Below are positions 6,146 to 26,749 of a DNA stretch of 64,000 nt, in pieces. Each line of letters opens with the position of its first letter. Within the stretch, counting starts at the first letter, position 1. A model generated the notes under the pieces. That model saw only the letters and a program-made list of their open reading frames with translations, had not been told where the DNA came from and did not search any database. Source of the stretch: a virus; the IMG/VR virus record IMGVR_UViG_3300006028_000010, positions 36,330 through 100,329 of that record; one strand, written 5' to 3'. A program made the translations under genes and the position numbers.

Positions 6146-6901
6146 TTATCCTTTGAAGCCGGCGCGGGTTAACGCTGCGATGGTCTGGGGTCCGATGTCT
6201 CTACCGTCCGCGCCGGTGATGCCCACTCGCCGCTGAAATTCGGCGATGACCGCTCGGGTCATGTCCCCGTAGTATCCGGTCACTGGTAGTTTGCTGTATG
6301 ACGCGTAGTTCGCGTTGAGCCAGGTTTGTAGGCGCCGGATTTCGTCGCTGGTCTGGCCGTAGTGCATCTCAATGATCGGGCCTGGCTGCGGTGGCGGCGG
6401 CGGGTGGTTGCCGCCCGGGTTGGCGTACGCCATGAACACGTCCCACGGGAAATTCGGGCCGGGGTCGGTGTGCGTTCCATCGTTTTTTCCGAGGGTCCAG
6501 TCCCAGTGCCCGCAGATACCTGAGTGGTCCGCGCCGACTTGCGCTGGGGTGAGTTTCACCGCCGGGATGCCCCACTTGGCGCACCATGCGCGGGCGACGG
6601 CGGCGGCGGAGCGGAGCATCCGGTCGTGGGCTAGCCATTCGGAGCGGGGCCATTTCGCGAACCCTGTGAAGCAAACTTGGAGTGATCTGTGGTTGCCGGA
6701 CAGCATCGCCCATGCTGCGACGTCGTCGGGTAGGTATTGGATGGTGGTGGTGTCGTCGACGATGACGTGGTAGGAGGCTTCGACGCCTGGCTGGTCCAAG
6801 TAGTTGACTAGGCCCGCTGCTGTGGTCGCGCCTTCCGCAGTGTGCACGCTGATGAGGCTGATGGGGGTGCCTTGGCGGTTTTCGCAGCCTCGGGGTATCA
6901 C
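6146..6901 (-). CDS. Endolysin: N-acetylmuramoyl-L-alanine amidase with peptidoglycan-binding domain
   Basis: 251 residues from a GTG at 6901 that overlaps the holin stop as GTGA. Residues 1-150 form an amidase_2/PGRP-type domain with zinc-ligand candidates in SVHTAEG, DHSGICGHWDW and THTDPGPNFPW. A Pro-rich linker (about residues 165-175) leads to a C-terminal PG_binding_1-like domain: IRRLQTWLNANY, GYYGDMTRAVIAEFQRRVG, IGPQTIAAL. It should hydrolyse the amide between muramic acid and the stem peptide at the end of infection. The frame remains open far upstream but overlaps real genes there. Confidence 0.9.
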   Translation of the reverse strand: MIPRGCENRQGTPISLISVHTAEGATTAAGLVNYLDQPGVEASYHVIVDDTTTIQYLPDDVAAWAMLSGNHRSLQVCFTGFAKWPRSEWLAHDRMLRSAAAVARAWCAKWGIPAVKLTPAQVGADHSGICGHWDWTLGKNDGTHTDPGPNFPWDVFMAYANPGGNHPPPPPQPGPIIEMHYGQTSDEIRRLQTWLNANYASYSKLPVTGYYGDMTRAVIAEFQRRVGITGADGRDIGPQTIAALTRAGFKG

Positions 6902-7122
6902 CGGAGGTGTCCTTGAGGTGGCGGCGCTGGGGGTGTGTTGGGTATTTGGTGTACGCCGAGCGCGCCGAGCGCGGCGGTGGCGATGATGAGCCATCCGGCG
7001 GTGGTGAATCCGCCGGCGATGTTGACGGCTTGCGCGGCGGTGAGTGCGGCGAAGAGGACCGCGACCACGGTTTTCGAGTAAGGGCGTAGGTCCCACGCGG
7101 GCGGGCTGGGCACAAGGATCAC
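6898..7122 (-). CDS. Holin
   Basis: 74 residues with two hydrophobic segments (about 17-38 and 41-58), a short loop and a polar Pro-rich tail ending PPPQGHLR. Size, topology and a 4-nt overlap with the amidase start identify it as the likely holin that gives the endolysin access to the wall. The family is inferred from context rather than a sequence motif. Confidence 0.75.
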   Translation of the reverse strand: MILVPSPPAWDLRPYSKTVVAVLFAALTAAQAVNIAGGFTTAGWLIIATAALGALGVHQIPNTPPAPPPQGHLR

Positions 7123-7128
7123 TCCCGG

Positions 7129-7521
7129 TTAGTGGGTGATGAGGGGGTCGAGGGCGACGGTGCCTTCGGCGAGGCACGCTGGTTCGTCTTGGGCGTGGGT
7201 GAGGAAGCAGTCCCAGGACGCGAGCCCGGGGAAGGTGAGCGCGGCGGTTTGCGCGCCGGTGATGACCAGCGTCAGGGTTGAGGTGAGGGTGACCGTGGAG
7301 TAGGTCAAAGCGGCGGCGCCGGTCTCTTCCCCGGGGGTGGTGTTCCATTCGAACAGGGCCGGGCCGCCACCGGCCCGGATTTGGGCGCGTGCCCCGTATC
7401 CGGTGGGGTCGGTGATGGCTGCGCCTAGCCGGTCGACGACGGTGAGGGTGATCACGGCCCCGGCGCCCTGTTTGAGGACCAGGTTGAGGTTGAGGATCGT
7501 CGGCGCGAGAAGGGTGGACAC
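7129..7521 (-). CDS. Phage structural protein, baseplate/tail type
   Basis: 130 residues, beta-rich: ILNLNLVLKQGAGAVITLTV, LFEWNTTPGEETG, TLTLVITGAQTAALTFPG, then a C-terminus ending VALDPLITH. Proteins of this pattern sit at the end of tail gene clusters in many phages and resemble small baseplate-upper-type proteins. It lies between a giant repeat protein and the holin. Role inferred from position. Confidence 0.65.
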   Translation of the reverse strand: MSTLLAPTILNLNLVLKQGAGAVITLTVVDRLGAAITDPTGYGARAQIRAGGGPALFEWNTTPGEETGAAALTYSTVTLTSTLTLVITGAQTAALTFPGLASWDCFLTHAQDEPACLAEGTVALDPLITH

Positions 7522-7536
7522 GGGGGGCTCCTCGCG

Positions 7537-9981
7537 TTAGACGTACGCGGCGGATGGGGCGGTGGGGGTGTCGGCGAGTGCTGCGGTGGCGCACCCGGTT
7601 GTTGATTCGGTGGTGGTGTTGGTGGCCGAGGCGGCGACGATTGTGACGCGGCCGTTGGTTGCGGTGGCTGCGCCGGCGAGGGCGGCGGTGATGCTGTGGT
7701 TCCCGACCAGTTCGGCGTTGGACACGCCGCTACTGGTGACGACCAGTTCCCCGTTGGTGGCGGAGCTGAGGATCGTGACCCGGCCGTTGATTCCAGCTGC
7801 GGTGACGCTGATGCCACCGGCGGTGGCCAGCGGGGGCCAGGCCGCGGGGTGGGAAACCACCGCGTGTCCGTGGGCGTTGTCGGCGCTGGCGGCGATGTCG
7901 TCGCTGACTGGCCGTGCTTGGGTGGTGAGCCAACGAATGGCGGTGTCGGTGGTGGTGGCAGCGTCTGCGGCGAGGGAGAGCAGGGGGGCGCGGTAATAGG
8001 CGCTGGACACAACGTCAGCGGCGACGGCTTGGTCGGTGCTGGTGTCACGAAGCAGGTCTTGTGTACGGGTCGTGGTGTCGTCGCCAGCCCCGGTGATGTC
8101 GGTGGCGGCGCGGTAGGTTACCCCGGACGCGGCACCGGCCGTGTCCGTTGCGGTGGCGGCGTCGCTGACCACCCGGCTGCTGACGGTGGCCGCGCTGGCG
8201 CTGTCCCCAGCGGGAGCGGTATCGCCGCTGGCTACCCGATTGCTGATGGTCGCGCTGGCGGCGCTGTCCAAAGCCGAAGCGGTGTCGTTGACCACCCGGC
8301 TGCTGACGGTGGTCGCGCTGGTGCTGCTTTCCCCAGAGGAAGCGGTATCGCTGATCGGGCGCCCGGCACCCGTAACGGGAGTAACAACATCGGCGGAGGT
8401 CGCGGTGTCGGCGCGGTCGCGTGCCGCAGTGTTTGACCGGGTTGCGGCGTCGCTGGTGACAGCGGCGTCACCAAGGGCGCGGTCTTGGAGACCGCTAGAT
8501 GATGAGGTGCTGACGAATTCCGTGGCGGGCGCGGTGCCCGATGTTTCGCGTAACACGATCAGGGCGCGACCGGCGCCGTCTGCGGCGGTGCCGCTGTCCG
8601 TGACAGCGCGGGTAACGGTCAGACCGCGGCTGGTGGCTTCTACGAATGCTGCTGTGGAATCGGCGGTGCTGCGGGCAAGGGACCGCGGGGAGCGGGTTGC
8701 GGTGTCAGCGGTATTCGCCGAGTCGGCGCAGCCGCGTACCCGGGTGGGGATACTGCGGGCGGCAACGTCGAGGAAAGCGGCTGCCGTGTCCGGGGTGGCG
8801 CGGGCCTCAGATAGCGGCGAGTGAACGGCGGTGTCCGCGGCAGCGGCGATGTCAGCGGCAACACGCGCCCGGACCGGGGCGCTACGCGCGGTCGTGTCAG
8901 CGCCCAACGCGCTCTCAACGGTGGCTCTGCCGAAAGCCTGGGTTGCGCGGCTTTCGGTGTCCGCGCCCGCAGCGGTGTTGTCCGTGGCCACGCGAACCAG
9001 GGCGAAGGCGCGGGACGAGGCGTCTGAGGCGGTCGCGGTGTCCAGCGACGCGATGCGGACTTTGGTGCCAGCGCTGCGGGTAACGCTATCGGTGGCCGTG
9101 GTGATGTCAGTGCTGACCCGCGCCCAGGTGGCGCCGCCGCGGGTGGCGCCGTCCGCGGCTGTCGCCGTGTCCGGGGCGGCGCGGGTACTAGATCGCGATG
9201 AGCGGGCCGCGGTGTCAGCGACGGCAGCGCTATCAGCAACGGAACGCGCCCAGCCCACGAGTGCGCGGCCAATCGCATCAACAACAGGTGCGCTGTCAAT
9301 ACCCAACCTGGGTAGAACCGGAGTTGCCCGGGTGGCGGTTTCCGTTGCTTGCGCGGTGTCCGCAATGACCGCTCGGATCAGGGCGAAGGCGCGGGCCACG
9401 GCGTCGGTGGTGGGCGCCTGATCTGAAGTAGTACGCGATTTGGCGGCGCCGCAGGTCACAGCGTCCGTGGCTGTCGCAGTGTCGGCGCGGGCACGGGTGA
9501 AACTCAGCGCCGAGCGGGCGGGGGCATCCGACGCGGCGGACGTGTCCCCAGCAGCCCCGGCTTTAACCGAAACCCGTGTCGCGGTGTCCGTTGCGGTGGC
9601 GGTGTCCGTCGTGACGCGGGTGAGGGTTGACGCTGCCCGGCTGGTGGCGTCAACAGCGCCGCCAATGTCCGTGGCGGCGCGGGAACCCGCAGCGCCCCGG
9701 GTTGCCGCGTCGGTGCCCGTCGTTGCGTCCGCGACGGTGCGGGTGACTTGAGTGGTTCTCCCCGCCGCGTCGGTAGCTGGCGCGTTTTCGCCGTCAGGGC
9801 GGGTTTTTAATCCTGCGACCCCGGTGACGGAATCCGTCGCTAGGGTCGTATCAACCACGGTCCGGGTTTTCGCGGCAAACCTTGACACGGAATCAGTCGC
9901 TGACGCCGTATCGGTTGCCGTCGCAGTAACAGTGCGCGCCGCTAGGGGAAGCCAGTGAGCGTGATAATGCTTGACCGCCAC
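7537..9981 (-). CDS. Giant Asp/Thr/Ala repeat tail protein 1
   Basis: About 814 residues from a GTG at 9981 with GGGGG 6-7 nt upstream (a TTG at 9987 is also open). Apart from an N-terminal stub containing HYHAHWLPL and a C-terminal 100 residues, it consists of about 33 degenerate copies of a 20-21-residue unit, pattern D-T-A-x-A-x-D-x3-R-x6-R-x3. The C-terminal part has two VTI(L/V) strands in similar contexts (NGRVTILSSATNGE and NGRVTIVAASATN). No signal peptide is present. Its place among tail genes suggests a fibre or spike shaft. The composition is low in aromatics and lacks Cys except in isolated cases. A second protein of the same design is encoded at 13862-16852. Confidence 0.8.
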   Translation of the reverse strand: MAVKHYHAHWLPLAARTVTATATDTASATDSVSRFAAKTRTVVDTTLATDSVTGVAGLKTRPDGENAPATDAAGRTTQVTRTVADATTGTDAATRGAAGSRAATDIGGAVDATSRAASTLTRVTTDTATATDTATRVSVKAGAAGDTSAASDAPARSALSFTRARADTATATDAVTCGAAKSRTTSDQAPTTDAVARAFALIRAVIADTAQATETATRATPVLPRLGIDSAPVVDAIGRALVGWARSVADSAAVADTAARSSRSSTRAAPDTATAADGATRGGATWARVSTDITTATDSVTRSAGTKVRIASLDTATASDASSRAFALVRVATDNTAAGADTESRATQAFGRATVESALGADTTARSAPVRARVAADIAAAADTAVHSPLSEARATPDTAAAFLDVAARSIPTRVRGCADSANTADTATRSPRSLARSTADSTAAFVEATSRGLTVTRAVTDSGTAADGAGRALIVLRETSGTAPATEFVSTSSSSGLQDRALGDAAVTSDAATRSNTAARDRADTATSADVVTPVTGAGRPISDTASSGESSTSATTVSSRVVNDTASALDSAASATISNRVASGDTAPAGDSASAATVSSRVVSDAATATDTAGAASGVTYRAATDITGAGDDTTTRTQDLLRDTSTDQAVAADVVSSAYYRAPLLSLAADAATTTDTAIRWLTTQARPVSDDIAASADNAHGHAVVSHPAAWPPLATAGGISVTAAGINGRVTILSSATNGELVVTSSGVSNAELVGNHSITAALAGAATATNGRVTIVAASATNTTTESTTGCATAALADTPTAPSAAYV
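7872..9930 (-). repeat. Degenerate 60-63-bp coding repeats, array 1
   Basis: The DNA of the repeat protein consists of 60-63-bp units, one per 20-21-residue repeat, with high GC and divergent copies. Strong compositional bias creates long open frames on the opposite strand, which I treat as shadows. Confidence 0.75.
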
Positions 9982-10002
9982 GGTCAACCCCCGGAGGTCA
10001 GG

Positions 10003-10659
10003 TCAGTCCAATGTGAGCACGCACCATGGGTACGCTCGCCCGGTGCCAGCGGTTTGTTTAAGGATGAACGTGGCCCCCTGGTTGGACGACACCGGAACGG
10101 TTTCGATGATGGGGACACCGAGCGTGTTAGCGAATGTCTGATAATACTGGTCCCGCAGGGTGCCGGCCGCCAGTACGGGTGTTTGTACATGCAATTCCAG
10201 AATATCCCCGGATGCCATCGCCGCGAGGTCAACACGCAGCACCCGCGTTTTGTTGGTGCTGGGCGCCGCCAATGTGTGCGAGGTGCCGATTACTGCGGTT
10301 TGGGTGCCAGATGATTCGACCGCCGGGACGAGGCCCGTAGTAAGTATCGTCCACGGATATGCTTTGGCTGCGCCCGCGGTTTGTTTAAGGGTGACCGTCA
10401 AACCCTGGTTAGCGGTAACCGGGATGGTTTCAACGATCGGAACACCGGGCGCGTGGAAATAAGTCTGATATAACTGATCGCCCACTGCGCCAGCGGCGAG
10501 TACCGCTGACTTGAGGCGAACCTCAATCGTGTCACCGGCCACCATCGCACCGCGATCAATCCGCAGCAACCGGCACTGACTAGTGCTCGGCGTCGCCAGC
10601 GTATGCTCAGTACCTATGACTGTTGTTTGGGTGCTCGATGACTCGACGGTAAGGGTCAT
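10003..10659 (-). CDS. Tail protein with two tandem copies of a beta domain
   Basis: 218 residues. The two halves (about 4-105 and 112-218) are clear duplicates: VESSSTQTTVIGTEHTLATP versus VESSGTQTAVIGTSHTLAAP, and GVPIVETIPVTANQG versus GVPIIETVPVSSNQG, both ending in a LKQTAG...AYPW motif. The domain is probably a beta-sandwich of virion proteins, function unknown. The ATG overlaps the preceding stop (TGATG). Confidence 0.8.
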   Translation of the reverse strand: MTLTVESSSTQTTVIGTEHTLATPSTSQCRLLRIDRGAMVAGDTIEVRLKSAVLAAGAVGDQLYQTYFHAPGVPIVETIPVTANQGLTVTLKQTAGAAKAYPWTILTTGLVPAVESSGTQTAVIGTSHTLAAPSTNKTRVLRVDLAAMASGDILELHVQTPVLAAGTLRDQYYQTFANTLGVPIIETVPVSSNQGATFILKQTAGTGRAYPWCVLTLD

Positions 10660-11483
10660 CAGCCGAATCCCGTCAGCGTGATGTTAGGCCGCGAGGCGGT
10701 GGAAATCGACGTGCACTGGTAACGCGCCGCGAGGCTAATGCCCGCAGGAATGTCCACGGGGAATAGCAGCGGTCTCCCGCAGTTGATCTCTTCATTCACG
10801 GACACAGAAAACGGCAGGTCCGGGATGATGACCCCGGGGGTGGCGCCCGTTCCAATGTCCAACAAGCCATCCCCCGCGGTCGCCGTCGTGGTGGGCGGTG
10901 AGCTGATGCCTACCAGCATCCAGCGAGCGGGGGCGGTGGTCGTGGCGATGGCTGTCCACGCCGATTTGGTGTTGATCGCGGTGGGTGCGGCGATCGCGGT
11001 TCCGGTGCTGGATGCGGTGACCGCCCCGTAGGTCACCGCCCGGTGCGCGGCCTCGATGCCCTGCCCCCCACCGAAAAGGCGGATGGCGAACGTGTTTGCT
11101 TTGCTGGCAACCGCGGAACGGACTCGCATTACCACGCGGCTACCGATAGGGATGTACAGCGGGAATGACCAGGATGCGAACGCTACCGATCCGCCGAACG
11201 CGATATCTTGGCTGATGGCGACCTCAGCTCCGGATGCTCCCCGACCTAGGTCTAGTAGTGCCTGAGTGTTGCTGGCCGCTACCGCCCATCCGGTTTTTCC
11301 CATAAACAGCTCGACACCGAAGACCGGAAACGTGACCCCCGCGTGCAGCTGTATCCAGTTTCCTACCGCGTTAACCGTGGCTGAGGCTGTCACAGTCGTC
11401 ATAAGCGAAGTGGTCGGGACGTGTCCGCCCATGCCGTTGCATCCCGCATCGGACACAAACCAGGGCACTAGCTCGACCCCCAC
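10659..11483 (-). CDS. Tail/fibre structural protein
   Basis: 274 residues, rich in Ala, Thr and beta strands, with Gly-containing turns; segments such as ARWMLVGISSPPTTTATAGDG and FPVDIPAGISLAARYQCTS resemble phage receptor-binding or host-interaction domains. It starts 16 nt inside the end of the upstream gene and its stop overlaps the next start, so the genes are coupled. I do not recognise the family. Confidence 0.7.
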   Translation of the reverse strand: MGVELVPWFVSDAGCNGMGGHVPTTSLMTTVTASATVNAVGNWIQLHAGVTFPVFGVELFMGKTGWAVAASNTQALLDLGRGASGAEVAISQDIAFGGSVAFASWSFPLYIPIGSRVVMRVRSAVASKANTFAIRLFGGGQGIEAAHRAVTYGAVTASSTGTAIAAPTAINTKSAWTAIATTTAPARWMLVGISSPPTTTATAGDGLLDIGTGATPGVIIPDLPFSVSVNEEINCGRPLLFPVDIPAGISLAARYQCTSISTASRPNITLTGFG

Positions 11484-11911
11484 CCGGCCTGCAAATCGAT
11501 GTCCTGAAAATCGAACCGGTAGCGGTACGGCCCGAGCATCTGCCCGATCCGAGCCTGCATCGCTTGACTATCGTTAGCGGAAAGTGAAGCCCATGCCGAG
11601 GTGAGTGTGGGGTCGGCAACCAGATCCACCACCCGGTCCACGAGAGTAGCGACAGGGGCGGCCACATAATTTCTCGCGGTGGTGTCCCAGATCAGTGAGG
11701 CGTCTGGTTCGTTACCTATTACTAAAACATCAGTACCGGACGGCAGAGGTAAATCCAGGGTGGTACCCAAAGAGAGCAGTTCACCCGTGGTCGTGTCATA
11801 GAGGGCGTACCAGAGGGTTTGCGGAACGGCAGTTATATTGTTGTAGGGGGTGATTTTTGCTTGGAGCGCGTAGCTGCGGCCTAAACGAGACAACTGAATC
11901 CCCCCCTGCAC
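11468..11911 (-). CDS. Phage structural protein
   Basis: 147 residues. The N-terminal part is beta-rich (LQAKITPYNNITAVPQTLWYALYD), the middle contains GTDVLVIGNEPDASLIWD, and the C-terminal part is helical (LSANDSQAMQARIGQMLGPYRYRFDFQDID). It lies between tail genes and overlaps the following gene by 16 nt. Function unknown. Confidence 0.65.
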   Translation of the reverse strand: MQGGIQLSRLGRSYALQAKITPYNNITAVPQTLWYALYDTTTGELLSLGTTLDLPLPSGTDVLVIGNEPDASLIWDTTARNYVAAPVATLVDRVVDLVADPTLTSAWASLSANDSQAMQARIGQMLGPYRYRFDFQDIDLQAGWGSS

Positions 11912-11950
11912 TGTTACTGTTGCGTGCGGTGGGCAACAGACCGTCCCCGA

Positions 11951-12451
11951 TCAACATTCTTGCCAGAGCACCCATGTGTAACAATTGACGGCGACTGGGG
12001 CGGTGACCCGCACCCTCAAGAACTTGCTGACCGGGACTTGTGGTTCGTTGTCCAGTGGCCACTGGTAGCTGTATTGGTTGGTGGGCGCGATGAATTGTAA
12101 ATCAAATTGCCGGGTGGCGGTGATGGTGCCTTCGGCGGTAGCGGTGTATCCGGTGGCTGTGGTGCCCAGTGTGACTAAAGATAGGGGAGCATTCGGGTCG
12201 TTGAACGCCTGCACCCCGGTGGAGGTGTGCGCGGTGACCGTGGCAGCCACGTCGGTTTGGAGTAGTTCACATCGGATGGGGGTAGCGGCGGCGCTGCCGT
12301 CGAAGCTGATGGACCATGCTTTGATGGTGAGCGGCCGGGTCGCTGGGGTGGCGATTTGCAGCATCGTTTTGATGGCGGAGCCGGTGGTGACCGGTGCGAA
12401 CGCGGCGGTCGTGGGCATGGGGCCATTGCCGGCCCAGTACAGATCAGGCAC
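11951..12451 (-). CDS. Virion protein, paralogue of the protein at 16935-17420
   Basis: 166 residues. The pattern TRPLTIKAWSISFDGSAAATPIRCELL, followed by a late FLRVRVTAPVAVNCYTWVLWQE, parallels the protein at 16935-17420 (MGLNELSVTFNGTSATAVPV and IGIQCVAPAIVACTACLAWTE). Both look like beta-sandwich virion decoration or fibre-associated proteins. It is part of the apparent duplication of the tail module. Confidence 0.7.
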   Translation of the reverse strand: MPDLYWAGNGPMPTTAAFAPVTTGSAIKTMLQIATPATRPLTIKAWSISFDGSAAATPIRCELLQTDVAATVTAHTSTGVQAFNDPNAPLSLVTLGTTATGYTATAEGTITATRQFDLQFIAPTNQYSYQWPLDNEPQVPVSKFLRVRVTAPVAVNCYTWVLWQEC

Positions 12452-12510
12452 CTTAGTCTACCCCATTACCGATAGTAAGATCGTCGGACGGCCTCTTGGG
12501 CAAAGAGTGT

Positions 12511-13062
12511 TCATTCGCCTGGGTCGAGGCCGGCGATCGCGCTGAACACATTCGTCGGGACAGTGGAATTAACGGTGAAATTGAGGTTGGTGTCCGTTTC
12601 CATCTTCTGCACCGTGCCGGTCGCGCCACCAACACCGTTACCAGGCCAAGGGATTGAGAACGTGGTGGTGCTCAACACCGTCACGACCCACGTACCGTTG
12701 GCGTTGGTGTTCACCGCGTGGTTGAGGACCTCCACCACATCACCGGAGGTGTATCCGTGTACTGGCGTGGTGATCACGATGGGGTTAGCGTTGGTCGATG
12801 ACGTGATCGCAATTGGGGCGAACCACGACAGCGATAGCCCAGGGTCGGAGGCCACCGCCGCCACAAACGACGGTAGATACGAGTCCGGGTTAACGAGGAT
12901 CCGGTTAGCTAGTCGTCGACGCTTCCACCAAGCGTTGACGCTTAGTGTGCCTTGCGGTTCGGTGGATACGTTCATCGCGGCCTTGACCATCGCCGCTCGG
13001 ATCCGTGCCTGGAATGACGCGTCGTTCACGAGCTGCGCGCCTTGACCTAGCGTCAACGCCAT
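12511..13062 (-). CDS. Phage structural protein
   Basis: 183 residues. The N-terminal 80 residues are helical with a WWKRRR cluster; the C-terminal half contains an ITTPVHGYTSGDVVEV motif and a strand-rich ATFSI-like ending seen in tail proteins. It is the only gene here combining these parts. The role is inferred from its place in the tail cluster. Confidence 0.65.
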   Translation of the reverse strand: MALTLGQGAQLVNDASFQARIRAAMVKAAMNVSTEPQGTLSVNAWWKRRRLANRILVNPDSYLPSFVAAVASDPGLSLSWFAPIAITSSTNANPIVITTPVHGYTSGDVVEVLNHAVNTNANGTWVVTVLSTTTFSIPWPGNGVGGATGTVQKMETDTNLNFTVNSTVPTNVFSAIAGLDPGE

Positions 13063-13088
13063 CGAGAACTCTCCTCATGCGGGCTCGA

Positions 13089-13754
13089 TTACCAGTAATA
13101 GGACCGTCGCACAGCCTCCTGAACCAACACCCTCGGAGGAGGTGGCGGAGGTACAGGCGGAACAGCGAACGTCACCGCGAACCAAGTGCCAGACCCCCCA
13201 CCGAACGCGCCGGGGTTTTCGCTTGCGGCGTTGAGCTGGCGCGTTCCTACAGCCACACTTAGACCAAGCCCGTTCAGGGGATTAACAAGCCCGGCATAGT
13301 TCGTTGGGAGAGTCGCGGCGGTTGACCCCGCATACGATTCAGCGGCTATCCATAACGTGTCGAGTTGGCCGTAGCTCGGCGTGTACGAGGGTGGGTCACC
13401 ACTACCTGTACCACTAGTCGCGAAAGTACCGATCTGTGGTGCAGTGACAGCCGATGCGGTAGTAATCCGGAGCATCACCCAAGCCCACGAAACGGTAGTA
13501 GCCGCAGTTAATGACGGTGGCGAATCACCAGTCTGATAATACCGGTACCCAGACTCCAACTTATTGGCGGTGCCACCGTTGTTGTTGAGCTGTGTCCAAC
13601 CGGTCCAGCCTGTCGTTTGCCCAGCAGAAGTACCCGCAGCGGCAATCAACAGCAACAAATCGCCTTGGGTTACACCTGTGGGAAAAGTTATAGTGGTTAT
13701 CGTTGCTGCGGTCGCTATACCGTTAGAGCTTGTGGCAACAGACGGAAACGCCAT
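13089..13754 (-). CDS. Tail protein, single-domain paralogue of 17437-18699
   Basis: 221 residues: one domain with FPTGVTQGDLLLLIAAAGTSAG, TGWTGWTQLNNNGG, YRYYQTGD, SWAWVMLRI, DPPSYTPSYGQLDTLWIAAES and a Pro-rich tail (PPPPPPRVLV). Residues match the second domain of the protein at 17437-18699 almost throughout, and the DNA is close to identical over long runs, so a recent duplication is likely. Probably a lectin-like or fibre domain; substrate unknown. Confidence 0.8.
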   Translation of the reverse strand: MAFPSVATSSNGIATAATITTITFPTGVTQGDLLLLIAAAGTSAGQTTGWTGWTQLNNNGGTANKLESGYRYYQTGDSPPSLTAATTVSWAWVMLRITTASAVTAPQIGTFATSGTGSGDPPSYTPSYGQLDTLWIAAESYAGSTAATLPTNYAGLVNPLNGLGLSVAVGTRQLNAASENPGAFGGGSGTWFAVTFAVPPVPPPPPPRVLVQEAVRRSYYW

Positions 13755-13820
13755 CTACATCACGCTTTGATTAAAGCTGGAAAAACCCATCGGTGATGAG
13801 GCGTCTTCAGGAATAGGCAT
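13755..13820 (-). CDS. 21-residue ORF with a very strong Shine-Dalgarno
   Basis: ATG at 13820 is preceded by AAAGGAGG 4 nt away and encodes 21 residues (opening MPIPEDASSPMGFSSFNQ), ending in TAG directly against the ATG at 13754. The spacing suggests a translated peptide that hands ribosomes to the next gene. It may be the remnant of the duplication joint. No homologue is recognised. Confidence 0.55.
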   Translation of the reverse strand: MPIPEDASSPMGFSSFNQSVM

Positions 13821-13861
13821 GGGCCTCCTTTGGGTACCTCTGAAACGAGGGCGCCTCGCGT

Positions 13862-16852
13862 TTAGTGAGCAATAAATGCGGGTGGGGTTAGTGTGGCGGT
13901 GGGTGCTCTGAGTGTCGCGAATTGTGGTCGGCTGGTGGCGTTGGGGATGAGCGCGGCGCTGGTGGCGTGTGGTGGCCACGGCGCGGGGTACAGCCAACGG
14001 GTGGTGTCCGCTGCGGCGGCGGTGTCCGCGGTGGTGGCGGTGATCAGGACCTGGGTGATCGCGGTAGCGGCGTCGGTGGTGGGCGCGGGGTCGCCAAGGA
14101 GTCGGGTGATGCGACGGCCGGTGACGGTGGTGGTGTCGGTGACCGCCGCGGTGTCCGTAGCGGTTCGGGTCTTGACTGGCGCCCCGACGGGGGTGTCGGC
14201 TGCGGGTGCGGTGTCCAGCGCCAGGGACCGGAGCTGGGTCAGCGCCTGGGTTTCCGCGTCTAGGGCGAGAGCTGTGCCGGTGACCGGTCGGGCTGTGCTA
14301 ACCCGGCGGGTCAACGCGTCGGCGGCGGGTGCGGTGTCGGTGGTCGCCCGGGGTTGGGCCGCTGCCCTAGTGACGACCCCGGTTGCTGGTGCGGTGTCGG
14401 TGGGGGCGCTGGACTGGGTGCCCGCGGTTGCGGGCGTGTCCACCGCGGTCGCGGTGTCCCCTCGGTTGCGGGTCAGGGTCAGCCCGCCGCGGAGTGCGGC
14501 GTCCGCGGCGGGCGCTGTGTCGGTCGTGACCGCAGACGCGCCCCGAACTGGGGTGGTCGTGTCGTTGACGGTGGCGGCGTCGGTTGCGGTGCGGGTGAAT
14601 AGCTGAGCTGTTCGGGTGGTGAGGGCGGTGGCGGTGGCGGGGTCTGGGGTGCTGCGGACGCTGGTCGTGGCCCGGGTGGTGGTGTCGGTCCCGGCGGCAG
14701 CGTCGGTTGCGGCGCTGATCCGCGTCGTGGCTCGGGTGGCGGCGTCGCCGGCAGTAGCGGTGTCCGCGGTGGCCCGGGGCGTGGTGGCCAGGACCCGGGT
14801 GGTGGTGTCCGCTGCGGTCGCCGTATCGGTGGGCGCGGCACTCGCGACGTGACCTGAAGAAGCAGCGTCCCCCGCCGTCGCGACGTCGCCCGTGCTGCGC
14901 CCTAGGGCCACCGTGGCGCGCTGGGTTACGTCGGCGGGTAGGGCAGTGTCGGTGGCTGCCCGCGTCGCAGTGCGGGCTCGCGTGGGCAGGTCAGTGACGG
15001 TGGTTGCGTCCGCCGCGGCCCGGGTCCGGGTGGTGCCACCACGGGTGGCGGTGTCCGATGCGGTGGCAGCGTCCGCGGTGCCCCTGGCCCCCGCACCCGC
15101 GGCCCGACTCGTGGCGTCGAATGCCCCCGCGGTGTTGTCGGTAACCAGTCGGGTCTCGATCGGCGAGCGGGTTGCGGCGTCGGTGGCGGGTGCGGGGTCG
15201 CCACCGATCCGCGTGGAGGTTCTACCCCGAACAGCTACGTCAACAGCGGAAGACGACGCGTCGGTAACCACCCGGAGCTGCGCCGACACCCGGCTACCCG
15301 CATCGGTAACCGGTGCGAGATCACCGACCGCGCGGGCGCGGACCGATATCGGGCCGGCCACGTCGGCGCTGTGCGCGGTGTCGCTGATCGGCCGTGCCGC
15401 GATACCAGTACGAGAAGCTGCATCAGCGGCCGGTGCGATGTCGGCAGCGGCGCGGGGGTTTGTTTCAGCACCCCGAATGGCGGTGTCAGTAGCGGGCGCG
15501 GTGTCCGCGGTGGCGGTGCGCGTGGCGTGCCCAACGCTCACCGCATCAGCTGCGGTCGCGGTGTCTGTGCCGCCGCGGCCCAACCCGAGAGCGCTCCGTC
15601 CGGTACTGTCCGACGCCGACGCAAGGTTGGTACCGGCGCGACTGAAGGCGCTAACACCGCGGGCGGACACCTCGCCGGCGTTGGCGGTGTCGCTGGCCGC
15701 ACCCGTAAGGCTTTGACCTGCGCGAACGGCCGCATCGGTCGCAGCAGCGGTGTCCGTAACGGCGCCGCGGGTGAGAACCAACCCGGCCCGGGTGACGGCA
15801 TCCGCCACCGGGGCGGAATCAACGAGGCCGCGGGTTTTCCCGCTCGCGTCGCGAACAACCGCATCGGCTGCTGCGCTGGTGTCAACTGTTGACCGCGCCA
15901 GTAACAGCGTCGCCCTGACCGGGGTGTCCGCGGCGGGTGCGGAATCCGCGGTGCTACGGGTGATGCTTTGCGCTGACCGCGCGACACCATCAGACGCGGA
16001 CGCTAGATCACCAACGGTTCGCGCTTTGGTTAACGCGCTGCCCGTGGCAACGTCGCTAGCCGAGCTCGTGTCACCTAATGCCCGGGCGAACAGCTGAGAT
16101 GGGCGGGTAACAATGTCCGCGGCGGGGCTAGCGTCCGCTCTAGCCCGAGCCGTGGTGATAGTTCGGGCGCAGCTATCACTAGCGCTGGCCGAGTCGCCCA
16201 GCGTGCGTGACCAAGCCGCTGCGCCACGAGAAGTGCTATCAGTGGCCGCTGCCGCGTCGGCGGCGCCGCGAATGAACACCTGGCCAGCGCGCGAGCTTAC
16301 GTCCGTGGCGGCAGCAGCGTCGGCGACGGCCCGGGAATGGGGCGCCGTCCGGCTGGTGCCATCGACCGCGGGGGACGTGTCGGTGGCACCACGAACCCAC
16401 GCCGACCCGGATTTGGCCGCCGCGTCCGCGGCTGACGAGGTGTCCGTGGTGGCCCGCGACTGCACAGCAGCACGGGTCACGGAATCCGTGGCGCCGCCGC
16501 CGGAATCAGAAACAGCGCGTGTTTTCAGCGCCGCGCTGCTTACTGTCGCGTCCACTATGGGAGCCGTGTCCGCGGCGGCGCGGATCAGGGCTTGCGCGGT
16601 TTTCGACGAGGTGTCCGTGGCCGCAGCGGTGTCGGCGGCCACCCGGGTTTTGATTGCTGCGCTGGTGGTGACCGCATCGACCGCGCCCGCGGTGTCCACG
16701 GCGCCCCGGGTGGGGACAAAAGCGGCCCGAGGGGCCGCGTCAGTCGCCGCAGCGGTGTCCGCCGCAGCGCGCGTTAAAGCAGCCGACCCCGCCCCGGGAA
16801 TCGGCCGAATCCAGCGAACCCGATCGGGGAAACCGCGCCCAAGCCTGGCCAT
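13862..16852 (-). CDS. Giant Asp/Thr/Ala repeat tail protein 2
   Basis: 996 residues. After about 25 residues (MARLGRGFPDRVRWIRPI) almost the whole protein is a run of some 45 degenerate 20-21-residue repeats of the form D-T-A-x-A-x-D-x3-R-x6-R-x3, as in the protein at 7537-9981. It ends with a short Pro/Ala segment (WLYPAPWPP) that resembles the end of the repeat block of protein 1 (SHPAAWPPL). No membrane span or signal is seen. It lies between fibre-type genes and should be virion-associated. Extended coiled or solenoid structure and glycosylation of its Ser/Thr are both conceivable. Confidence 0.8.
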   Translation of the reverse strand: MARLGRGFPDRVRWIRPIPGAGSAALTRAAADTAAATDAAPRAAFVPTRGAVDTAGAVDAVTTSAAIKTRVAADTAAATDTSSKTAQALIRAAADTAPIVDATVSSAALKTRAVSDSGGGATDSVTRAAVQSRATTDTSSAADAAAKSGSAWVRGATDTSPAVDGTSRTAPHSRAVADAAAATDVSSRAGQVFIRGAADAAAATDSTSRGAAAWSRTLGDSASASDSCARTITTARARADASPAADIVTRPSQLFARALGDTSSASDVATGSALTKARTVGDLASASDGVARSAQSITRSTADSAPAADTPVRATLLLARSTVDTSAAADAVVRDASGKTRGLVDSAPVADAVTRAGLVLTRGAVTDTAAATDAAVRAGQSLTGAASDTANAGEVSARGVSAFSRAGTNLASASDSTGRSALGLGRGGTDTATAADAVSVGHATRTATADTAPATDTAIRGAETNPRAAADIAPAADAASRTGIAARPISDTAHSADVAGPISVRARAVGDLAPVTDAGSRVSAQLRVVTDASSSAVDVAVRGRTSTRIGGDPAPATDAATRSPIETRLVTDNTAGAFDATSRAAGAGARGTADAATASDTATRGGTTRTRAAADATTVTDLPTRARTATRAATDTALPADVTQRATVALGRSTGDVATAGDAASSGHVASAAPTDTATAADTTTRVLATTPRATADTATAGDAATRATTRISAATDAAAGTDTTTRATTSVRSTPDPATATALTTRTAQLFTRTATDAATVNDTTTPVRGASAVTTDTAPAADAALRGGLTLTRNRGDTATAVDTPATAGTQSSAPTDTAPATGVVTRAAAQPRATTDTAPAADALTRRVSTARPVTGTALALDAETQALTQLRSLALDTAPAADTPVGAPVKTRTATDTAAVTDTTTVTGRRITRLLGDPAPTTDAATAITQVLITATTADTAAAADTTRWLYPAPWPPHATSAALIPNATSRPQFATLRAPTATLTPPAFIAH
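13990..16770 (-). repeat. Degenerate 60-63-bp coding repeats, array 2
   Basis: Repeat units of 60-63 bp encode the tandem D-T-A-x-A-x-D blocks. Copies differ in the six residues after the Arg, while the D, A and R positions are kept, so selection seems to act on the protein pattern. Confidence 0.75.
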
Positions 16853-16934: not shown

Positions 16935-17420
16935 CTATTCAGTCCACGCGAGGCAGGCTGTGCACGCCACTATAGCCGGGGCCACGCATTGAATACCGAT
17001 ACCGCTGCCAGCCACCGCGGGGGTCACCACCTCTAAACCGAGGGGTATTTGGTAAACCATTCCCGAGGTGGGGGAGATGTACCAGCTGCGAAGCATGACA
17101 CCCACGGTGGGTGCTGTTGTTGCATACACCCCCGGGCTTGCCGTGGTGGGCATATACGCGGTGCATAAACTGGCCGGGGAGTTGGTGTCGGTCGGCGTTG
17201 GCGCCTGGGTGATCGTGCCGCCCCCCACCGGAACCACCGTGGTCCGCACCACCCGAACAATTACCGGTACCGCCGTCGCGCTGGTGCCGTTGAACGTCAC
17301 CGACAGCTCATTCAGGCCCATGCGCCGGGTGGTGCCAGTGGGGGTAACATCCAGCACCACCAAGGCAGTCGCCGCGCCCAGGTTAATACCTTCCGATATG
17401 GCAACATACTGGTCGGCCAC
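16935..17420 (-). CDS. Virion protein, paralogue of the protein at 11951-12451
   Basis: 161 residues from a GTG (MADQYVAISEG). Strand-rich, with TRRMGLNELSVTFNGTSATAVPV and a C-terminal IGIQCVAPAIVACTACLAW. The layout and Cys positions resemble the gene at 11951-12451. It lies directly before the second giant repeat gene, mirroring the arrangement of the first module. Probably a small fibre or decoration protein. Confidence 0.7.
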   Translation of the reverse strand: MADQYVAISEGINLGAATALVVLDVTPTGTTRRMGLNELSVTFNGTSATAVPVIVRVVRTTVVPVGGGTITQAPTPTDTNSPASLCTAYMPTTASPGVYATTAPTVGVMLRSWYISPTSGMVYQIPLGLEVVTPAVAGSGIGIQCVAPAIVACTACLAWTE

Positions 17421-17436
17421 AGCACCCTCTTATTCG

Positions 17437-18699
17437 CTAAAAGTTCGCGGCGCGTGCCACGGCCTGGGAGACAATCCGAAGTCTGATGGGAACACCACCT
17501 GACACCGGGGGTACGGCGAACGTCACCGCGAACCAGGTGCCAGAACCCCCACCGAACGCGCCGGGGTTTTCGCTCGCGGCATTGAGTTGGCGGGTTGCTA
17601 TAGCCACGCTTAGACCAAGCCCGTTTATGGGATTAACAAGCCCGGCATAGCTCGTTGGGACGGTAGCCGCGGTTGACCCCGCATACGACTCCGCCGCTAT
17701 CCATAGCGTGTCAAGCTGACCGTAACCCGGCGTATACGACGGTGGGTCACCACTACCTGTACCACTAGTCGCGAAAGTACCAATCTGCGGCGCCGTGGAG
17801 GCCGATGCGGCAGTGATCCGAAGCATTAACCAAGCCCAAGAGACAGTAGTGGCCGCGGTTAACGTCGGAGCGGTATCACCGGTTTGGTAATACCGGTACC
17901 CGGATTCCAGTTTGTTAGCAGTACCACCATTGTTGTTCAGCTGAGTCCAACCGGTCCAGCCTGTCGTTTGCCCAGCAGAAGTACCCGCGGCGGCGATTAA
18001 CAGTAATAGATCCCCCTGCGTTACACCCGCAGGGAAGGTGGTGGTTACTGATGCCGCGGTTGTTGTGCTATTAGAGTTACTAGCAACGGTCGGAAACGCC
18101 CCGGGTGGGACGGCTATCGTTGCGGCATACCAGGTGCCACTGAAACCGGCAAAAGCGCCGGGGTCTTCCGTGGCGGTCGTGAGTTGCCGCGTTCCTATCC
18201 CCACGGTCGGCCCGACCGCCGCGGAAGACTGGACCAATCCCGTGTAGTTGGCGGGCGCGGCACTCGGAATCGCGTTACCGGTAGCTGACGCTATGGCTAT
18301 CCATAACGTGGCGGCGCTTCCGTAGCTCGCGGTATACGACGGCGGGTCAGGCTGACCGCTCGCGGAGGTCGAGAATGTGCCCACCTCGGGCGCGGCGGTA
18401 GCACTTCCTCCGGTGATTCGTAGCATTAGCCACGCCCACCCCGTGGACGGTCCACCAATGGTTGGTGCGGTATCCCCGGCCTGATACCGGCGATAAGCAA
18501 TCTCCGCTTTTCCACCGAGCGTGGTGTTCACGAGCTTGGTCCATCCGGTCCACCCGGTGGTGGTTCCCGGTGCCGCACCCGTCGCGATCACTAGGAGCAG
18601 TAAATCCCCAGCGGTGACACCCGTGGGAAATGTTGTCACCGCTGAGGTACCGGAGGTGACCGTGTTACTTGAACTGGTGGCAACAGTGGCGAAACTCAC
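17437..18699 (-). CDS. Tail protein with two tandem lectin-like domains
   Basis: 420 residues made of two copies (about 1-200 and 202-410) of the same domain found singly at 13089-13754. Shared motifs are TGDLLLL or QGDLLLL, GWTGWT, YRRYQAGD or YRYYQTGD, WAWLMLRI, DPPSYT and GAF-SGTW. The second copy is nearly identical to the single-domain protein, the first is more diverged. This suggests an older tandem duplication and a younger copy moved downstream. The domain is probably a receptor- or glycan-binding unit. Confidence 0.8.
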   Translation of the reverse strand: MSFATVATSSSNTVTSGTSAVTTFPTGVTAGDLLLLVIATGAAPGTTTGWTGWTKLVNTTLGGKAEIAYRRYQAGDTAPTIGGPSTGWAWLMLRITGGSATAAPEVGTFSTSASGQPDPPSYTASYGSAATLWIAIASATGNAIPSAAPANYTGLVQSSAAVGPTVGIGTRQLTTATEDPGAFAGFSGTWYAATIAVPPGAFPTVASNSNSTTTAASVTTTFPAGVTQGDLLLLIAAAGTSAGQTTGWTGWTQLNNNGGTANKLESGYRYYQTGDTAPTLTAATTVSWAWLMLRITAASASTAPQIGTFATSGTGSGDPPSYTPGYGQLDTLWIAAESYAGSTAATVPTSYAGLVNPINGLGLSVAIATRQLNAASENPGAFGGGSGTWFAVTFAVPPVSGGVPIRLRIVSQAVARAANF

Positions 18700-18708
18700 A
18701 CGCCGTCC

Positions 18709-19359
18709 TTACATACTGACTGTTTCAGTAACGGTCAAAGCGTCGCCGGTGGCCGTCAACGTGGCGGTGGGTGAAATAAGCGTCAAAAACTGCGGACGAC
18801 CAGTCGCGCCGGACAGGGTATTAAAAATACCCATCTTTCCAATAGTGCGCGCCCCAAAAGTCTGGTCAGTACCCGTGTACGTAAAAGTCGCCGCCAGCGA
18901 ATAAGAGGCCACCGTGGTGGTGTGCGCGTAGGTGGCGAGTTTCCGTAAACAACCCGAGCTGGCCGCAGTAATTTCCGAAGTAAGGGTCGAGTCCGTGGCC
19001 AAGACGGTGGCCGTGTCAGTGCTGATCGCCATATACCAGTAGGGCGCCTGGCCAGGCACAATCATGAACACGGTGGTCGCGGTCGGCGTTGTCGCCGGGC
19101 CGGAACCGGGGGTGCCCAACGCATACCACTGATCCACCGTCAACTGAGACGTAGTATTCGCTGTGATAACCCCGTACGCCGCTGCTGCGGAAACGGTGAC
19201 CACAATGTGCCCAATGTAGGCACTGGCCACGAACGGTGTGCCGGTGGCTGTTAATGTGGTGGCCGTGCTGGCGGTGGCTGTGCCAGTATACCCAGCAAGA
19301 TCACCACCCATCGAGGCGGCTTGGGCGTCAGTCCCGCTATTGATCCGGATCTTGAACAC
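18709..19359 (-). CDS. Conserved actinophage tail protein
   Basis: 216 residues from a GTG at 19359. Features: a Thr/Ala-rich N-terminal region, PGQAPYWYMAISTDTATVLATD, GCLRKLATYAHTT, TFTYTG, TIGKMGIFNT, and a Thr-rich C-terminus ending TVTETVSM. This arrangement is familiar from tail-associated proteins of actinophages. It follows two hairpins that may separate it from the upstream genes. Confidence 0.75.
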   Translation of the reverse strand: MFKIRINSGTDAQAASMGGDLAGYTGTATASTATTLTATGTPFVASAYIGHIVVTVSAAAAYGVITANTTSQLTVDQWYALGTPGSGPATTPTATTVFMIVPGQAPYWYMAISTDTATVLATDSTLTSEITAASSGCLRKLATYAHTTTVASYSLAATFTYTGTDQTFGARTIGKMGIFNTLSGATGRPQFLTLISPTATLTATGDALTVTETVSM

Positions 19360-22173: not shown

Positions 22174-24681
22174 CTATAGTGATTCTGTGCTGGCCAGGGA
22201 CACCCACGGGCTGGCGTCACCCGAGACTTCGGTGATCCGCCGGGTGTACACGTCGGGAATGATGATCGGGTGCCGCCTAATATCGAGCAGCATGGAATCA
22301 CCCACCCGATAGGAGCCGAGGCCGGGTTCACCGTCGGCGCGGGTTTTCACCGTCCATTTGTCAACGGGTAGCGTGTACCGCGCCAGTGAGGCCCGCGCGT
22401 AGGAGTCCAACGCGGCTGGGTCGGCCACCGAACTTTGGGAGGTGTCGACCTCTTCCAACGCGGGGAACCCTTGATCCACCAACTGGTTGTCCACCCACCA
22501 AGACATCAGTTTCTTCTCGTCTTGTCCCGAGCCGGGGACGAACAGCATGCTGGCCATTCGGGCGGCGTCAATGTCTTGGCTGATCAACGAATTGGAATCG
22601 TCGAAAACCCAGGGATCGCTGGTCGACCCAAGGTGCGGGTTGCCGATGTTGAGTTCCCACGCCACATACAGCCCGTCGCGCCCGGTTTGCAGATAGGGGT
22701 CCAAGCGAAAATCTGGGCCGTCTTCTAATGTGACGATGCTGTTGATCGCTTCGGTGGCTGTGACGGTGTCGAACCCTTGGAAGAATCGGGTGACCGATCC
22801 TTGGGTTGAGGGTGGGTTGCTGCACGTGATGGGCAGTTCCCGCCCGGTGCGCCACCACGTGGTTCCCGGGATTTGTGAGGTGGCCGAATCGATGATCTGT
22901 TTGACCATGTCGCCGGGGCTGGTGGGTCCCAGGCTTAACGACCCGGCGGGGTCCGTCAGGACGCGCTTATCGAAAATGCGGGCCAGCTCGGAGGCGCCGA
23001 TATCGATTTTCGGGGTGTCCCCCGGGATGGTGCCCGGCAGGTAGGGGCCGGCGAACACGACAGCGTTGCCCCACACCAGGACCAGCGAGATCCGGTAGGG
23101 GCCGGTCAGGACTTCCCGGAGGGTGGCCCTCGGATCGATCGACCCGGTGGCCGCGATCTGGTCCAAGGCGTCTTCGATGACCAGGGATGCGCGTAGCTGC
23201 CCGACCGCGTTGATCGGGGTGTTCCATTGGATCGACTCGAAGGGTAGTTCCCACCCGATGCGCCCGGTGCGGGTGTCCGCCGCGTAAAGCCGGTACTGCG
23301 GGGTTTGCACCGGGTGGTAGACGCTGCCAGCGGGGGTGACCAAAGCCGGTCGGTAAGAGTCCGCGTTGGCAACAAGCCGGGATGAGACGACCAGGAGTAC
23401 GAGGTCCGAACCGCCGCCTACCAAATATGGGCCGATGACAGTGAATTGCGCGGCAGCGCGCAGCGTAGCCGCTACCGCCGGAACAGTCCCACCGGAAGTT
23501 AATACGGTGATGCTGCGCAGATTCGCGGCCCCAGCCCAGGTGGTGAACAACGTACCCGCGAACCCCGACTGGGCGTTAAGTTGCGCACCAACCGGGATGA
23601 ACCCGAACCCGACAATCCCCAGGCTTGAGGTCGCGGCCAATCCGCCGCCCGCCTTGGCGGGTGTTAACAACCCGGTGGTGACCAGTTGGGAATTCGCCAG
23701 CAGCGCGGTCGGGGGTGTCGTCAACCCGCTGAACAAAGACGTGGCGCTCAAGGTGGCCTGGGACACCGCGTAATACGTCAGCGCCGCGCCCAGATTAGAG
23801 CTGGTCACCAACGTTGCCGCGGCTACAGGTACCGCCGCGCCGGCAACAAGGTTGGATTGCCCCGCTAACGTGGCCGTCAGGAGCTGGGTAGGTGCCGACG
23901 CGGATATGTTCGATGTCGCCGCCAGCGTTGCTGCCCCGGCCGGAAGTGACGCCCCCACCGTCAATGACGATGCGGCAGCCAGCGTCGCCACACCGACCGC
24001 GGCGGCCGTGGGCAGAATCTCTAAAGCGGCGGTGTTGCTCTTGTCCGCGGTGGGCCACGTGCCACCGAACGACGGGGACGTGCCCACCGCAGCTGACGTG
24101 GTGGCGCTAGCCGAACGCCACGCCACAAGCCGTACCGTGTCAGTCGTGTCGTTATAGTCACCACTCGCGACAATGGTAGTAGCCGCATTAGGGGTCAGCG
24201 CCTCATTGATCGAACAGTTATCCGAGATCCCATAAACCCACGACCCGGTAACTGTCAGCGGGACAGTGAGCGCCCCATTAGTGGTGCCCGTCGCATCAAC
24301 CCGTGTGTTAGAACCCGCGCCCGCCTGGCTACTAGCCGCGCCCGTAAGCACCCGAACGGCCAGCATCCGCCCGCCACCAAGATTGGTGAACGTCGCGGAC
24401 ACCGTCATCGCACCCGGCGCGGTAGTCAGATAACGCGTGAATATTTTGGCGACACCACGCGCGGCACTCGCTGTGCCCTGCGCATTAGGCCCCGCGGTCC
24501 ACGTGCCCCCAACGGAGTCCGTGACCGAAGCATCCATGAGGCTGCCGCTGCCCCAACCACCAGCGACCAAAGCGACCAACAGTGACTGCGCGGGGGGCGT
24601 GAACGACGCGGTGGTACACGCCCCCGACGTGCCAGTAACCGGGACAGGCGCCGGGGTTGATGCGTCTTCGGCGATAGCCAC
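22174..24681 (-). CDS. Minor tail protein with Gp37-like C-terminal domain
   Basis: 835 residues. About 1-230: a lectin-like N-terminal domain (TSGACTTASFTPPAQSLLVALVAGGWGSG and following). About 230-450: degenerate Ala/Ser/Leu-rich repeats (ATLAATSNI, ATLSATSLFSG). About 455-835: a domain resembling the siphovirus ReqiPepy6 Gp37-like family (RLYAADTRTGRIGWELPFESI, DNQLVDQGF, SMLLDIRRHPIIIP), which forms part of the tail tip. The fusion is larger than typical Gp37-like proteins (about 370-420 aa). It may combine tail-tip and adhesion roles. Confidence 0.8.
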   Translation of the reverse strand: MAIAEDASTPAPVPVTGTSGACTTASFTPPAQSLLVALVAGGWGSGSLMDASVTDSVGGTWTAGPNAQGTASAARGVAKIFTRYLTTAPGAMTVSATFTNLGGGRMLAVRVLTGAASSQAGAGSNTRVDATGTTNGALTVPLTVTGSWVYGISDNCSINEALTPNAATTIVASGDYNDTTDTVRLVAWRSASATTSAAVGTSPSFGGTWPTADKSNTAALEILPTAAAVGVATLAAASSLTVGASLPAGAATLAATSNISASAPTQLLTATLAGQSNLVAGAAVPVAAATLVTSSNLGAALTYYAVSQATLSATSLFSGLTTPPTALLANSQLVTTGLLTPAKAGGGLAATSSLGIVGFGFIPVGAQLNAQSGFAGTLFTTWAGAANLRSITVLTSGGTVPAVAATLRAAAQFTVIGPYLVGGGSDLVLLVVSSRLVANADSYRPALVTPAGSVYHPVQTPQYRLYAADTRTGRIGWELPFESIQWNTPINAVGQLRASLVIEDALDQIAATGSIDPRATLREVLTGPYRISLVLVWGNAVVFAGPYLPGTIPGDTPKIDIGASELARIFDKRVLTDPAGSLSLGPTSPGDMVKQIIDSATSQIPGTTWWRTGRELPITCSNPPSTQGSVTRFFQGFDTVTATEAINSIVTLEDGPDFRLDPYLQTGRDGLYVAWELNIGNPHLGSTSDPWVFDDSNSLISQDIDAARMASMLFVPGSGQDEKKLMSWWVDNQLVDQGFPALEEVDTSQSSVADPAALDSYARASLARYTLPVDKWTVKTRADGEPGLGSYRVGDSMLLDIRRHPIIIPDVYTRRITEVSGDASPWVSLASTESL

Positions 24682-25553: not shown

Positions 25554-26749
25554 TACAAAAGCTCCATTTCCCCGGTGATACTCAAAATTCCGGCCTGCGG
25601 GTAGTTACCCGAGATGTAGGGGATGCCGGTACCCGTGAATTGGGATGATGTCGACGCGACTTGGTAGTAGCCGAGACGGCAGTCGCTGGACGAGAACGGG
25701 TACTGCGGGTACATCAGGTTCCCGGATGCGAAGATGACCGCGTCGCCAACCCACCGGGTGGTGTTGGTGGCCACATACAGCCAGGTGTGCAGGTGGGTTT
25801 CTTGTTTGGCGAACGCCCCCGCGGGTAGGAGTGTGAATACCGCGCCCCATCCCATGTTGTAGGGGGAGTTGCCCCAGTCGAAGAAGTAGTTGAGTCGCAG
25901 TGTTTTACCGACGGTTTGGTAACGGGCCACGGTTACCGCGCCGGACCCGAGGCTGCAAATTTTGGTGAGGTCGACTGCGCTGCCCGGCCCGCTGGGCTGG
26001 TAGTAGAGGGACGGGGTGAAACTGGACCATCCGGTGAGCGACACGATAGGCACCCACGCCTGTGCGGTGCCCTCCCACCCTTCGTAGGCGAGGGTGGTGA
26101 GGTTGTACCGCATTTGCCCCGGGTAGCCGCCTTGGCGGGTGTCGATTGATGTTGCTGGGTAGATGCCGCCGCGGGCGGTGGCGTACACCCTGCGACCGGA
26201 GATGTCGCTGGTCAAGATTTGGGTGGTGGCTGCCCGGACAGTGACCGCGGCCAGCAGGAAATCGCCTTCGGTGAGCAGCCCGGTGGGTTCCGCCGGGGTT
26301 GATGAGGGGGTGCCCTGAAGGATGACGATGTCCGCGGTGCGTGTCGGGGCGGGGGTGTCCACGTCACCGTCGCGGATGCGGATCACCACGTAGTCGATGC
26401 GCGGGTTGGAGGCGTTAGCGGTGGCGAACGTGATCGGAACAGGTGAGGTGATCGCACCCAGGTACACGCCCCGGTAGGAGCGGGCGATCATGTAGTTGCC
26501 GAAGTTGACTTGGGCGCCCATGTTCGCGGTGGGGGTGTTCGCCGTGACCTGGCAGTCGGTGATGGTGCCGTTGCTGGTTTGGGTGGGGAAAATACCCGAG
26601 CCGAAACCGAACGAGCCGCCACCGGGCAGCCCCTGGCTTAACCCGCCGAGCGCGATCCGCCAGTCGTCGGTTGTGTTGCCTATCCCGTTAGTGACATCCT
26701 TGTGCACGGCGACGGGATCCGTCATTTGGGATAAATTGGAAATTGTCAA
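25553..26749 (-). CDS. Minor tail protein
   Basis: 398 residues from a TTG at 26749 (GGATGGGGG upstream); the frame continues to 26782 but overlaps the HNH gene there. Contains ISNLSQMTDPVAVHKDV near the start, IDYVVIRIRDGDVDT, and a C-terminal beta domain with GKTLRLNYFFDW and SITGEMELL. The IDYVV(I/V)R-D pattern and Dit-proximal position support a minor tail or baseplate protein. Confidence 0.75.
   Translation of the reverse strand: MTISNLSQMTDPVAVHKDVTNGIGNTTDDWRIALGGLSQGLPGGGSFGFGSGIFPTQTSNGTITDCQVTANTPTANMGAQVNFGNYMIARSYRGVYLGAITSPVPITFATANASNPRIDYVVIRIRDGDVDTPAPTRTADIVILQGTPSSTPAEPTGLLTEGDFLLAAVTVRAATTQILTSDISGRRVYATARGGIYPATSIDTRQGGYPGQMRYNLTTLAYEGWEGTAQAWVPIVSLTGWSSFTPSLYYQPSGPGSAVDLTKICSLGSGAVTVARYQTVGKTLRLNYFFDWGNSPYNMGWGAVFTLLPAGAFAKQETHLHTWLYVATNTTRWVGDAVIFASGNLMYPQYPFSSSDCRLGYYQVASTSSQFTGTGIPYISGNYPQAGILSITGEMELL

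Follow-up and report, generated by a model that had tools for sequence, protein, structure and literature searches.

What kind of phage protein is built almost wholly from degenerate copies of a 20- to 21-residue unit? The question is raised by two genes in a 64-kb piece (positions 36,330 to 100,329) of the 100,329-bp IMG/VR record IMGVR_UViG_3300006028_000010, and we refer to the whole of this piece as the window. A sequence-only reading had taken both products for tail proteins with about 33 and 45 repeats, and our analysis recovered the two giant repeat-built frames, p1 and p2, on the minus strand (Table 1). Both proteins are rich in Ala, Thr, and Ser and contain few large hydrophobic residues. 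Translation of p1 may begin at TTG 9987 (giving 816 aa) or at GTG 9981 (giving 814 aa), and the spacing of a G-rich Shine-Dalgarno-like stretch favors the GTG. The N-terminus of p2, MARLGRGFPDRVRWIRP, resembles MARFGRSFPTRPKFI of the relative L042 and MARLGRANRIQPKII of the relative L036.

Table 1. The repeat genes p1 and p2 and neighboring features, in window coordinates
Feature	Coordinates	Strand	Basis or remark
Endolysin (Amidase_2 + PG_binding_1)	6146..7594	-	Homologue directly downstream of the L014 repeat gene
Small beta-sandwich protein	7129..7521	-	Weak LtfC-like match (E 0.0047, below the Pfam cut-off)
p1, giant repeat protein, 814 aa	7537..9981	-	ORF, start context, repeat tiling
p1 repeat array, ~33 units of 20-22 residues	7840..9912	-	Unit cutting and profile tiling
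Four small genes between p1 and the duplicated module	10003-10659, 10659-11483, 11468-11911, 11951-12451	-	
221-aa protein	13089..13754	-	Duplicate of the C-terminal half of 17437-18699
p2, giant repeat protein, 996 aa	13862..16852	-	ORF, N-terminal comparison with relatives
p2 repeat array, ~45 units	13964..16759	-	Unit cutting and profile tiling
161-aa protein directly upstream of p2	16935..17420	-	Homologues beside repeat genes in L036 and L042
420-aa protein, two copies of a ~200-aa domain	17437..18699	-	
216-aa tail-cassette protein	18709..19359	-	
835-aa minor tail protein	22174..24681	-	phrog_1885 over residues 458-830

Cutting p1 and p2 at the Asp pair gave a unit spacing of mostly 20 to 22 residues. 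Profile tiling placed 28 scored and about 5 degenerate units in p1 (residues 26 to 716), and 40 scored and about 5 degenerate units in p2 (residues 32 to 963), in agreement with the repeat numbers first read from the letters. The tiling scores of 348 (p1) and 494 (p2) compare with maxima of 9 and 11 for composition-preserving shuffles, a margin that is somewhat flattering since the profile was built partly from p1 and p2 themselves. In addition, the autocorrelation at 20/21 residues (0.191 for p1 and 0.239 for p2) exceeded that of all 2000 shuffles (maxima of 0.174 and 0.179), and the pattern D-x-A-x3-D-x3-R occurred 10 times in p1 and 19 times in p2, against shuffle means of 0.10 and 0.17. 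A tandem-repeat finder run on the window DNA returned fragments only, the repeats having largely diverged at the DNA level, which suggests that the protein pattern was kept while the DNA drifted.

A consensus pooled from 53 window units and 395 units of relatives reads D1-[TS]2-A3-x-A5-x-D7-x-[VA]9-x-R11, followed by a loop and then by R17/18-x-[VA]19/20-x. The motif originally proposed, D-T-A-x-A-x-D-x3-R-x6-R-x3, had picked out a genuine repeat, but its wording is better corrected to R-x-[VA]-x-D-[TS]-A-x-A-x-D-x-[VA]-x-R, after which comes a loop of 5 to 6 residues. Nearly all units are 20 or 21 residues long, with the difference in length located between the two Arg residues, and the few 22-residue units mostly obey the same loop-length rule. 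Conservation in the 20-residue units falls on odd positions throughout (1, 3, 5, 7, 9, 11, (15), 17, and 19), with small, variable residues at the even ones. A Fourier analysis of conservation in these units, from which the two anchoring Asp residues were excluded, peaked at 180 degrees (5.55 vs 1.57 at 100 degrees). Such period-2 conservation is a beta-strand signature and fits extended beta structure, not heptads. The series R-V-D-A-A-D-V-R is nearly mirror-symmetric around position 4, where Pro is common in relatives.

Selection on the unit was assessed in the arrays of the close relatives L028, L032, and L039. The dN/dS was 0.04 to 0.07 at the key columns and 0.48 to 0.58 elsewhere in the array, the former values being biased somewhat downward by the definition of key columns from the motif in one of the two sequences. 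Between L028 and L032, no unit has been gained or lost across 33 units. Such strong constraint on spacing and residue identity points to structure, not filler.

The repeat is not confined to the window. A DNA pattern encoding two units at 21-codon spacing matched 34 stretches in IMG/VR, of which about 30 are real arrays (some sharing one contig) on about 28 contigs; the matches L016, L025, L027, and L031 were judged to be chance or tape-measure matches. Not counting p1 and p2, 27 frames of the IMG/VR relatives contain at least 8 chained units. One subfamily, which we call "freshwater" by inference and not from the habitat data of the records, has a shorter, more hydrophobic array of 11 units with Ala replacing Arg, and its profile aligns with the main one at a probability of 97.9%, a figure to be read cautiously, since scores of this kind are inflated for low-complexity profiles. 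Among 84,980 cellular species genomes, a stricter pattern retrieved one contig, inside a phage tail module. Of 296 actinobacterial genomes searched with a profile, 2 carried the unit: the assembly already caught by the stricter pattern, and a second one in which a phage-like repeat protein is encoded on a 3.1-kb contig. Judging from these searches, the repeat is widespread over many uncultivated phages, and it appears mostly viral within the genomes searched.

Scanned against Pfam, p1, p2, and 78 repeat blocks gave no convincing match and no triple beta-spiral or shaft family, and a PDB sequence search returned no match to the repeat proteins. The initial view that the repeat is not collagen, beta-helix, or known coiled coil agrees with the lack of any such match in Pfam or PDB sequences, and none of the described fiber families matched. 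We rejected a collagen-like (Gly-X-Y) fiber, the unit profile having no glycine periodicity, and we regard as low-complexity resemblance both the scattered weak Pfam matches of repeat blocks (best 0.0016) and the MSCRAMM/serine-rich adhesin models of NCBIfam that some blocks matched (best 3.2e-5). A tblastn search of p2 and relatives against named phages gave nothing, which is weak evidence of absence since low-complexity filtering probably hides the arrays. No homologues of the window cassette proteins were found in named phages, and searching with peptide patterns from p2, from the minor tail protein, or from the tape measure retrieved no repeat relative.

When compared with PHROGs, p1 and p2 had no match, including to phrog_12240 and phrog_23524. 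These two clusters and phrog_16445 (PHROGs v4, unknown function) were matched by 26, 12, and 5 of the 78 repeat blocks, respectively, and the first two also by proteins of L036, L010, and L020. The three clusters are probably earlier captures of the same repeat, to go by these matches; they differ in carrying no function or structure annotation and are linked to the window proteins through relatives only. In the literature that we searched, this repeat is nowhere described, although, going by the PHROG matches, it has been sampled before.

The sequence-only reading had named structure prediction as a check, and the monomer models gave low confidence instead of a clear verdict of disorder. For ten p2 units (78 alignment rows), AlphaFold2 returned a model made up entirely of strands, with a 21-residue rhythm and no helix (pLDDT 48, pTM 0.36); for the 11-repeat freshwater relative L043, the model was helical (pLDDT 33). 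A Foldseek search with the low-confidence p2 model was insignificant (best E 3.0), its top matches being beta-helix enzymes. The main rival to a beta-structured shaft is that the arrays are disordered, Thr/Ser/Ala-rich virion brushes, possibly O-glycosylated, with the Asp/Arg spacing acting as a binding or glycosylation motif. We consider this unlikely, although the low AlphaFold2 confidence and the Ala-, Thr-, and Ser-rich composition are in its favor, and the phage encodes, within its structural gene cluster, a group 1 glycosyltransferase (35996-37030, minus strand) and, elsewhere in the window, an NAD-dependent epimerase (50013-50957, minus strand), a pair that hints at possible virion glycosylation. 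The very low dN/dS at the Asp, Ala, and Arg columns, the restriction of indels to one loop, and the strict alternation argue against disorder, as do charge-hydropathy values on the folded side. Moreover, low confidence is also expected of intertwined trimeric fibers, on which monomer prediction often fails, and an intertwined oligomer is the reason we favor for the poor prediction.

The genomic setting bears on where such a protein would be mounted. The gene order of the window is portal, capsid, long tape-measure-like protein, minor tail protein, repeat cassette, and endolysin, so that the repeat genes sit in the late tail module beside minor tail and lysis genes; the true start of the endolysin probably lies well inside its frame. 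In nine loci on independent contigs, a repeat gene is found near homologues of window cassette genes. Homologues of the 216-aa protein occur near repeat genes in L021, L024, L032, L035, L036, and L042, those of the small beta-sandwich protein directly downstream of repeat genes in L019, L028, and L032, and those of the last of the four small genes (11951-12451) beside repeat genes in L014 and L036.

Domain organization in relatives points the same way. The repeat proteins of L021, L024, L028, and L032 have an N-terminal domain homologous to that of the 835-aa minor tail protein. In L042, a 994-aa protein that matches phrog_5313 begins with 5 repeats; its gene comes after a tape-measure-like gene, with two small genes in between. 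The repeat gene of L028 is followed by a homologue of the beta-sandwich gene and then by one for an 866-aa protein with motifs of the L042 C-terminal part (by eye), and the L014 repeat protein matches a PHROG "tail protein" (phrog_15881), with a GDSL hydrolase located within that match. The array is therefore fused to tail proteins or surface-acting enzymes in L042 and L014. Gene order and these fusions support the tail region to which p1 and p2 had been assigned; it is from these two lines that their presence in the virion is suggested.

That p1 and p2 are head-anchored fibers (capsid whiskers) and not tail parts seems to us decidedly unlikely. The repeat gene comes after a capsid-like gene in the same run of genes in L036 and precedes a terminase-like gene in L029 (both by eye), and it lies before a tape-measure-like gene in L017; in some phages, the appendage may therefore be mounted on the head. 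Against this, minor-tail-like or tail-cassette genes are the neighbors in the window, L028, L032, and L042, and the L042 repeats are fused to one such protein. Repeats forming helices or a coiled coil, an idea that goes back to the earlier remark that three heptads fit 21 residues, are highly improbable: Ala richness, the four-residue spacing of both Asp-Arg pairs (D7-R11 and R18-D22 as i,i+4 salt bridges), and the helical, albeit poor, model of L043 speak for them, whereas conservation alternates with a period of 2 and not 3.5 (the Fourier contrast given above), the hydrophobic a/d heptad pattern is absent, 20-residue units break the heptad phase, the variable sites carry Thr, Val, Ser, and Pro, and the AlphaFold2 model of the window protein has no helix.

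Several further observations were made in the window. The cassette holds a recent duplication, the 221-aa product being 83% identical at the amino acid level to the C-terminal half of the 420-aa protein. Residues 969-989 of p2 and 182-202 of the 216-aa protein form a common 21-residue C-terminal stretch (67% identical) in otherwise different proteins. A second, different degenerate repeat (~L-A-A-x-S-x-L-x-A, by eye) occupies residues ~230-440 of the minor tail protein, between its N-terminal domain and its tail domain. The portal gene (41155-43911, minus strand) matches SPP1_portal at residues 27-284 and is interrupted by a long stretch that matches LAGLIDADG (623-676) and shows Hint-like motifs (by eye); this insertion is probably an intein. 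Adjoining the terminase, the product of 46119-47363 (minus strand) combines a DNA methylase domain (N6_N4_Mtase, residues 196-387) with a ParB-like N-terminus (by eye). Cys/His-rich HNH-type endonuclease-like genes (by eye) lie at 26746-27345, 37058-38308, 54503-55312, and 59867-60670 (minus strand). Among named phages, the closest terminases belong to phages of Streptomyces and Gordonia (~51% identity), and from this likeness we guess that the host is probably an actinobacterium.

We propose that p1 and p2 are beta-structured shafts of long tail appendages of a siphovirus-like phage, either side fibers or baseplate whiskers, and put the probability of this reading at roughly 0.6. It is based on the order of the tail cassette, the fusions in relatives, selection, period-2 conservation, loop-confined indels, and the weak all-strand model; the low AlphaFold2 confidence, the scarcity of large hydrophobic residues, and the head-side gene positions in L036, L029, and L017 count against it. 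Each unit would add extended beta structure, with R-V-D-A-A-D-V-R facing one way, small Thr/Ser/Ala residues on the opposite face, and one variable loop between the two Arg residues. The two Asp and two Arg residues per unit may form a charge-balanced face, stacked copy on copy, and salt bridges could hold the stack in place of a greasy core, either within a solenoid or between intertwined chains. Repeat number would set fiber length, and the ends and inserted domains (N-terminal beta-rich domains and, in a relative, the GDSL hydrolase) would anchor the fiber or act on the cell surface. A beta fold, an oligomer, virion presence, and an adsorption role are thus what we infer for p1 and p2. More tentatively, the D-A-A-D/R-R unit may represent an undescribed fiber architecture, in which Asp-Arg salt-bridge ladders and alanine packing replace the hydrophobic core across many uncultivated phages.

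Known systems offer partial parallels to such a shaft. The adenovirus fiber has a triple beta-spiral shaft, a long thin appendage built from short tandem units that combine a turn with alternating residues. The triple-stranded beta-helix of T4 gp5 is also a type of viral beta-repeat fiber shaft (PMC4576200). The phage repeat shares short tandem units, alternating residues, and a turn with both, but differs in unit length and motif and has no Pfam or PDB sequence match. Curli exemplify beta-solenoid repeats of ~20 residues (PMC10192328). Like that type of solenoid, the phage repeat has ~20 residues per unit, alternating inward residues, and one variable loop, and no repeat protein matched the curlin repeat in Pfam. 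The conserved curli pattern also differs from the Asp/Ala/Arg of the phage repeat. As for attachment, the actinobacterial siphophage Douge, a mycobacteriophage, has a baseplate with a trimeric central fiber and BppU appendages (PMC13033339). A Douge-type baseplate, likened by description and not by sequence, would be a plausible mounting place for the repeat fiber. To our knowledge, there is no link between the Douge fiber or BppU proteins and this repeat.

In these phages, some of the largest proteins consist of little else than this repeat, which corresponds to no named family in Pfam or NCBIfam and to no solved structure. In our searches, ordinary BLAST missed these repeat proteins, probably because of low-complexity filtering, and the repeat provides a searchable signature for probable host-contact proteins. 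It also poses a testable question, namely, how Ala, Thr, Asp, and Arg could make up a stable rod that has hardly any greasy core.
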